Source: an uncultured Fibrobacter sp.
GTDB lineage: Bacteria > Fibrobacterota > Fibrobacteria > Fibrobacterales > Fibrobacteraceae
NCBI GenBank assembly: GCA_900313675.1
Contig: OMSO01000016.1
Coordinates: forward strand, 1 to 64,000
Length of the DNA stretch: 64,000 nt
Direction: 5' to 3'
Shown: piece by piece, positions 56,089 through 56,441 of the stretch
Layout: each line of letters starts with the position of its first letter
Position numbering within the stretch: position 1 is the stretch's first letter
The notes under the pieces: generated by a model
Told to the model about the DNA's origin: nothing
Databases searched by the model: none
What the model saw: the letters and a program-made list of their open reading frames with translations, nothing else
Translations under genes and position numbers: made by a program

Positions 56089-56117
56089 TTGTCGCTCAGC
56101 AAAAAACAAGCTAAATT
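56089..56117 (+). promoter_or_regulatory. Promoter of the SRP-like RNA
   Basis: -35 TTGTCG (56089-56094), 17-nt spacer, -10 TAAATT (56112-56117); start expected about 56124, exactly at the base of the closing helix. Confidence 0.7.
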
Positions 56118-56123
56118 GCATAG

Positions 56124-56225
56124 TCCCAGGCCCTGAACAATGATTATTTGCGGGCAAATCGCCAGGGCGAAAGCAGCAACGGACTTGCGAATCTTTATGT
56201 GTTCAGGTCGCCTGGGATTTTTTTT
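56124..56225 (+). ncRNA. ffs: Probable SRP (4.5S) RNA
   Basis: About 100-nt rod: closing helices TCCCAGGC/GCCTGGGA (8 bp) and CCTGAAC/GTTCAGG (7 bp), a middle helix ATTTGCGGG/CTTGCGAAT, and an apical region CAGG-GC-GAAA-GC-AGCA (56163-56178). CAGG opposite AGCA below a GNRA loop is the Ffh-binding core of SRP RNA. A T8 run follows. The apical stem is one base pair shorter than the usual CAGG-NCC-GGAA-GGN-AGCA. Own promoter. A strong terminator-like hairpin alone would not explain the internal core. Confidence 0.72.
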
Positions 56226-56228
56226 CTT

Positions 56229-56441
56229 ATGGTCTACGTCTTATTGATTCTTGCAAGCCTCACCGGTATCGCCATATCGGTGTTTTATTTGCGCAAGAAC
56301 ATTATTCGCATTCGCGAAAAAAACAAGAACGAGCCCAAGGCCTATAAGCGCGGTCTCAACTATGTTATGACCTACCTGTGGTATGGCTACCTATTGGTAT
56401 TTTTCACAGGTCTAACTGTTAACAACCTTGGGAACTGGTAG
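56229..56441 (+). CDS. Small two-helix membrane protein
   Basis: 70 aa from the ATG at 56229. Hydrophobic helix 1 (VYVLLILASLTGIAISVFYL), a basic loop (RKNIIRIREKNKNEPKAYKR) and helix 2 (YVMTYLWYGYLLVFFTGLTV). The codon pattern and positive-inside loop argue for a real gene. It begins four bases after the T run of the SRP-like RNA, without a clear ribosome site, so expression may depend on read-through. Its 3' end overlaps the convergent Nudix gene by 23 nt. No family recognised. Confidence 0.55.
   Translation: MVYVLLILASLTGIAISVFYLRKNIIRIREKNKNEPKAYKRGLNYVMTYLWYGYLLVFFTGLTVNNLGNW

Follow-up and report, generated by a model that had tools for sequence, protein, structure and literature searches.

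A small SRP RNA with a two-base-pair apical stem in Fibrobacter and related families of Fibrobacterota

Fibrobacter carries a bacterial small SRP RNA whose apical stem has two base pairs in place of the three of the RF00169 consensus, and this short form is fixed across a clade of four families of Fibrobacterota (f1, f2, f3, and f5), in which all 117 recovered SRP RNAs have it. SRP RNA helps deliver membrane proteins, and its helix 8 is among the most conserved RNAs. The RNA described here lies in the window, i.e. the whole 64,000 nt stretch of DNA analyzed; it is a bacterial small SRP RNA, neither an error nor a decayed copy, and is classed as RF00169 with a variant tip. The features of the locus are as follows, with the evidence for each in brackets.

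56089..56117, + strand: promoter, consisting of TTGTCG (56089-56094, -35-like), a 17 nt spacer and TAAATT (56112-56117, -10-like) (conservation)
56122..56131, + strand: 5′ arm of the closing helix, pairing with 56210-56219 (fold; covariation)
56124..56220, + strand: small SRP RNA gene, RF00169 match (RF00169 covariance model, fold, lineage model)
56163..56166, + strand: 5′ side of the symmetric loop, CAGG, the site of the Ffh M domain (model alignment, direct reading)
56167..56174, + strand: apical stem of two base pairs (G-C and C-G) with GAAA tetraloop (fold, alignment, family survey); the strands are GC at 56167-56168 and GC at 56173-56174, and the tetraloop is 56169-56172
56175..56178, + strand: 3′ side of the symmetric loop, AGCA (alignment, direct reading)
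56210..56225, + strand: intrinsic terminator, formed by the 3′ arm of the closing helix and a run of eight T (56218-56225) (fold, reading, conservation)

The RF00169 (Bacteria_small_SRP) model matched the RNA over its full length at 56124-56220 on the + strand with 45.3 bits (E 1.1e-8), which is above the gathering score of 40 bits used by Rfam itself to decide membership. This was the only RF00169 match in the window genome (G000; 2.4 Mb, 78 contigs), and a lineage-specific model returned the same sole match, leaving no second, canonical SRP RNA to set against the identification. Folding placed the start of the RNA near 56122. Among the matches listed, F. succinogenes (L170) has the same core in a nearly identical SRP RNA. 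The SRP RNA was absent from a whole-window Rfam scan at default gathering settings; despite the score above the cut-off, it was probably dropped by the fast filters. An RF00169 search with stricter filters similarly missed 7 of 60 genomes, four of which were recovered with the lineage model. Annotation pipelines may therefore call Fibrobacter genomes SRP-RNA-less, which is the practical side of the finding.

The first-pass annotation of this DNA had read the core as CAGG-GC-GAAA-GC-AGCA, and direct reading of 56163-56178 confirmed it letter by letter. The symmetric loop CAGG...AGCA of RF00169 and a GNRA apical tetraloop (GAAA) are both present, and the first three letters of CAGG are invariant in an alignment of 23 Fibrobacterota sequences. 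The 3-bp apical stem of the consensus is not, as the RF00169 alignment places a 2 nt deletion at this stem and the minimum free energy (MFE) structure contains a 2-bp stem. The proposal of an SRP RNA one base pair short at its tip thus agrees with model score, alignment, and fold. The 3-bp stem is a feature of the consensus rather than a criterion of membership, because further RNAs with a 2-bp stem also score above this cut-off. The window RNA folds at -43.2 kcal/mol compared with -28.3 ± 4.1 kcal/mol for shuffled sequences (z -3.6), and none of 200 shuffles equaled it. In isolation, 2-bp stem-loops are weaker than canonical ones (-0.1 kcal/mol for GC/GC and +1.6 kcal/mol for AC/GU, whereas two 3-bp versions have -3.3 and -1.7 kcal/mol); therefore, Ffh and stacking on the symmetric-loop pairs probably steady the short stem.

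The rest of the hairpin is backed by covariation. Among 32 distinct f1 sequences, 16 of 36 pairs showed double changes and 95.1% of cells were paired, a value reached by 0 of 500 shuffles and far above the 30-44% of slid structures. The closing helix of the RF00169 hairpin is supported by this covariation, and the closing helices are in place as first described. Both apical pairs are invariant within f1, and the apical covariation comes from the wider clade: in the mixed alignment of 23 sequences, the outer apical pair occurs in four forms (AU, GC, CG, and UA) with no break.

We compared the SRP RNAs across Fibrobacterota with a model (R1) built from the 23 sequences, which was run on 167 genomes and rerun on 20 of these under looser filters. 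An SRP RNA whose core could be read was obtained from 155 genomes. The apical stem has 2 bp in 117 of them (f1, 105; f2, 1; f3, 10; f5, 1) and 3 bp in 38 (f4, 2; f6, 1; f7, 4; f8, 3; f9, 21; f11, 2; f12, 3; f13, 2), and no family is mixed. All 75 Fibrobacter genomes that yielded a sequence share the same core. The short stem is maintained within the 2-bp set, since 107 genomes have G-C as its outer pair and the other 10 have A-U. The tetraloop differs as well: it is GAAA or GAGA, always GNRA, and within Fibrobacterota these loops are confined to the 2-bp set, whereas the 3-bp relatives carry GGAA. The departure from a very conserved RNA suspected from the window alone is hence real, but it is not peculiar to one genome, being uniform in four families and found in other phyla, and it involves the tetraloop in addition to stem length.

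Twelve of the 167 genomes, including five of Fibrobacter, gave no usable SRP RNA with R1. Two Fibrobacter genomes, G001 (94% complete) and G115 (99%), had no R1 match even with looser filters, which may reflect an assembly gap or a still more divergent RNA. In another Fibrobacter genome (G111), the SRP RNA occurs three times, on three contigs (L287, L288, and L289), and either mixed strains or real duplication may account for this. CAGA replaces CAGG in G155-G158 (genus g18), G053, G083, and G087, some of which have 2-bp and some 3-bp stems.

A tree of Ffh (28 Fibrobacterota rows and E. coli) places all 16 rows from 2-bp genomes on one side of a branch, although this branch is not strongly supported (86/67). 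The single f4 row, which belongs to the same class and has a 3-bp stem, adjoins the 2-bp rows (96/88) but is long; this position fits one pair loss after the split of f4. These sequences are most simply read as showing a single origin of the 2-bp stem in the phylum.

The RNA is flanked by a conserved promoter and terminator. A promoter of the form TTG...TANN[AT]T is found at the equivalent position in 69 of the 75 Fibrobacter genomes, and its -10 element alone in 75 of 75, compared with 6 of 177 control positions. A strict promoter consensus scan found none, as TTGTCG-17-TAAATT falls below that consensus, but the conservation sustains the promoter originally proposed. The terminator proposed with it is also present, as eight T at 56218-56225, and TTTTT follows the SRP RNA in 75 of 75 Fibrobacter genomes. 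From this conservation, the locus appears to be an active gene. Loci of f3 and f5 (e.g. L026) have no T-run after the SRP RNA in the aligned sequences, unlike Fibrobacter, and termination may differ in these families.

In 16 of 17 f1 loci checked (L012, L014-L020, L027-L031, L239, L244, L246, and the window), the first ORF after the SRP RNA is the start of a histidine-phosphatase-like protein, of which one 75-residue piece matched PF00300. The window is the exception; a 70-aa protein, probably membrane-bound, is encoded at 56229-56441 and starts three bases past the T-run. It seems that either the RNA and its promoter moved as a unit or the neighbor moved.

Short stems also occur outside Fibrobacterota. 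A pattern scan of public genomes returned at least 119 stretches, which include many chance matches and give no basis for frequencies, and a scan of viral sequences returned 36, taken as a view of chance matches. From the two scans, 18 loci were chosen by eye as likely RNAs together with a few likely chance matches. RF00169 or RF01854 scored above its cut-off at the place of the pattern in 13 of the 18: Bacillota, Chloroflexi, the Micrarchaeota-labelled L115, Geothrix, two Deinococcota, Treponema, Sumerlaeota, Verrucomicrobiota, two Planctomycetota, a cyanobacterium, and an alphaproteobacterium. Among 14 genomes reached through such loci, 13 have one RF00169 match and one has two; the latter is the cyanobacterium of L159 (G172), with matches of 46.8 and 45.0 bits.

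Pattern surveys of three phyla, which detect RNAs with exact flanks only, matched 14 of 119 Acidobacteriota, 41 of 117 cyanobacterial, and 94 of 111 Deinococcota genomes. The 111 Deinococcota divide into 25 genomes with 2 bp, 67 with 3 bp, 2 with an odd match, and 17 without a match. A 2-bp core with TC/GA was found in 5 of the 119 Acidobacteriota, and two further matches (G256 and G242) are of 2-bp length. The 3-bp core was present in 40 of the 41 matched cyanobacteria, and the one 2-bp genome had served as the center of the survey. In Micrarchaeota, RF01857 matched L161 (82.0 bits, E 1.1e-18) and L099 (69.7 bits, E 1e-15), both below its gathering score of 96.5; the tip of L161 has 2 bp in the alignment, and the core of L099, read directly, is the same. 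These surveys make 3 bp look like the common state and the loss of one pair like a recurrent event.

We searched 30 genomes for the protein partners and obtained Ffh from 28 (missing in G000 and G040) and FtsY, scoring above its cut-off, from 29; in G059, the FtsY search returned only its Ffh. The window's own assembly (81% complete) yielded FtsY but no Ffh at E 1e-80, and Ffh is present in its congeners. The RNA-binding residues S382, R398, R401, G405, and G407 of the Ffh M domain do not vary among the 28 Fibrobacterota rows, whether from 2-bp or 3-bp genomes. FtsY K399, which we take to be a tetraloop contact, is lysine in 17 of 17 2-bp rows and 12 of 12 3-bp rows. Because these contact residues of Ffh and FtsY are conserved, the short-stem RNA most likely functions as an ordinary SRP RNA with its FtsY-docking tetraloop brought one base-pair step toward the Ffh site.

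We consider it very probable that a single-copy Fibrobacter SRP RNA gene lost one apical pair, most simply once, exchanged its GGAA tetraloop for GAAA or GAGA, and has retained this form since. The pair would have been lost in the ancestor of most of the class Fibrobacteria (f1, f2, f3, and f5) after f4 had split off, and the tetraloop switch would have accompanied the loss. The M domain of Ffh would be bound as usual via the symmetric and asymmetric loops. One A-form base-pair step amounts to roughly 2.8 Å and 33 degrees, and the docking loop would lie about one such step nearer the Ffh site. The GNRA loop would still dock FtsY in the early targeting complex. In E. coli, according to the accessible parts of two studies (PMC4737761, PMC5454536), the NG domain of the receptor is first positioned on the SRP RNA tetraloop in the early state and then shifts to the distal end, the place at which GTP hydrolysis is set off.

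Whether the shorter stem has any consequence is a matter apart from its identity. It may have arisen by neutral drift, with GNRA docking tolerating 2 or 3 bp and the proteins and kinetics unchanged, a view for and against which we judge the chances to be even. The occurrence of the 2-bp form in several phyla and the unchanged contact residues suit this view. Ffh-FtsY co-variation confined to Fibrobacterota was rejected as a test of protein adaptation, since many positions separate the 2-bp and 3-bp groups and the comparison is confounded with ancestry. A contrast of three clades, in which the Deinococcota FtsY rows G513, G490, G169, and G501 and the cyanobacterial rows were omitted, gave few convergent positions, close to the control (7 of 453 in Ffh compared with 4; 6 in FtsY compared with 3), as drift would predict. 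Against drift, the seven convergent Ffh positions include three (380, 381, and 415) that fall within 377-420, the stretch taken as the RNA-binding region (binomial 0.024, the region having been chosen post hoc), although position 380 appears in the control list too; this signal is weak and post hoc. Moreover, none of the 117 Fibrobacterota genomes has returned to 3 bp, and none of the other 38 has 2 bp. Apical-stem length might instead be an evolvable register that relates the Ffh site to the FtsY loop, shortened separately in Fibrobacteria, part of Deinococcota, the Geothrix-containing part of Acidobacteriota, Micrarchaeota, and other lineages, with the early complex and Ffh positions 380, 381, and 415 rebuilt to match, but we regard this as rather unlikely.

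It is very improbable that another pairing register makes the stem in effect 3 bp long. G56166 and A56175 adjoin the stem and could form a stacked G-A pair; however, canonical relatives have this G and A beside their 3-bp stem as members of the symmetric loop, the G is replaced by A in the four g18 genomes, and the MFE structure keeps the stem at 2 bp. An error of sequencing or assembly, or a decayed pseudogene, confined to one genome, to which the silence of the default Rfam scan might point, is refuted by the core common to the 75 Fibrobacter genomes, the single copy in the window genome, the covariation, and the conserved promoter.

The spacing between the Ffh site and the loop on which the receptor docks is usually regarded as fixed. 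Clades with a clean difference of one base pair offer a natural experiment on how exact this spacing must be.

In the literature covered, the scope of which left out most subscription papers and SRPDB, we found no description of a 2-bp bacterial apical stem or of a Fibrobacter SRP RNA. Compared with RF00169 and E. coli 4.5S RNA, the window RNA has the same CAGG/AGCA symmetric loop, GNRA loop, and hairpin with closing helix, but its apical stem has 2 bp instead of 3 and its lineage carries GAAA or GAGA instead of GGAA. The SRP RNAs of Geothrix, Trueperaceae, Planctomycetota, Treponema, Verrucomicrobiota, the cyanobacterium, and others share the 2-bp stem and the GNRA loop; they differ in that many have GGAA and most have UCAGG/AGCAGC flanks, and they belong to separate lineages. 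The SRP RNA of Micrarchaeota (RF01857) has a 2-bp helix 8 tip, CC-GGAA-GG in L161, but is a long RNA of another domain in which helix 8 is packed on helix 6. In basidiomycetes, the accessible part of one report (PMC4605306) describes altered helix 8 together with changes in Srp54, likewise a lineage-specific change in the most conserved part of SRP RNA; there, the changes are insertions and alterations of the asymmetric and symmetric loops in a eukaryotic RNA. The plastid SRP RNA of a moss, as far as set out in the accessible part of another report (PMC5115805), has a 10 nt apical loop and lower affinity for SRP54. It too departs naturally at the same tip, but by an enlarged loop, whereas Fibrobacter has a GNRA loop on a shorter stem.
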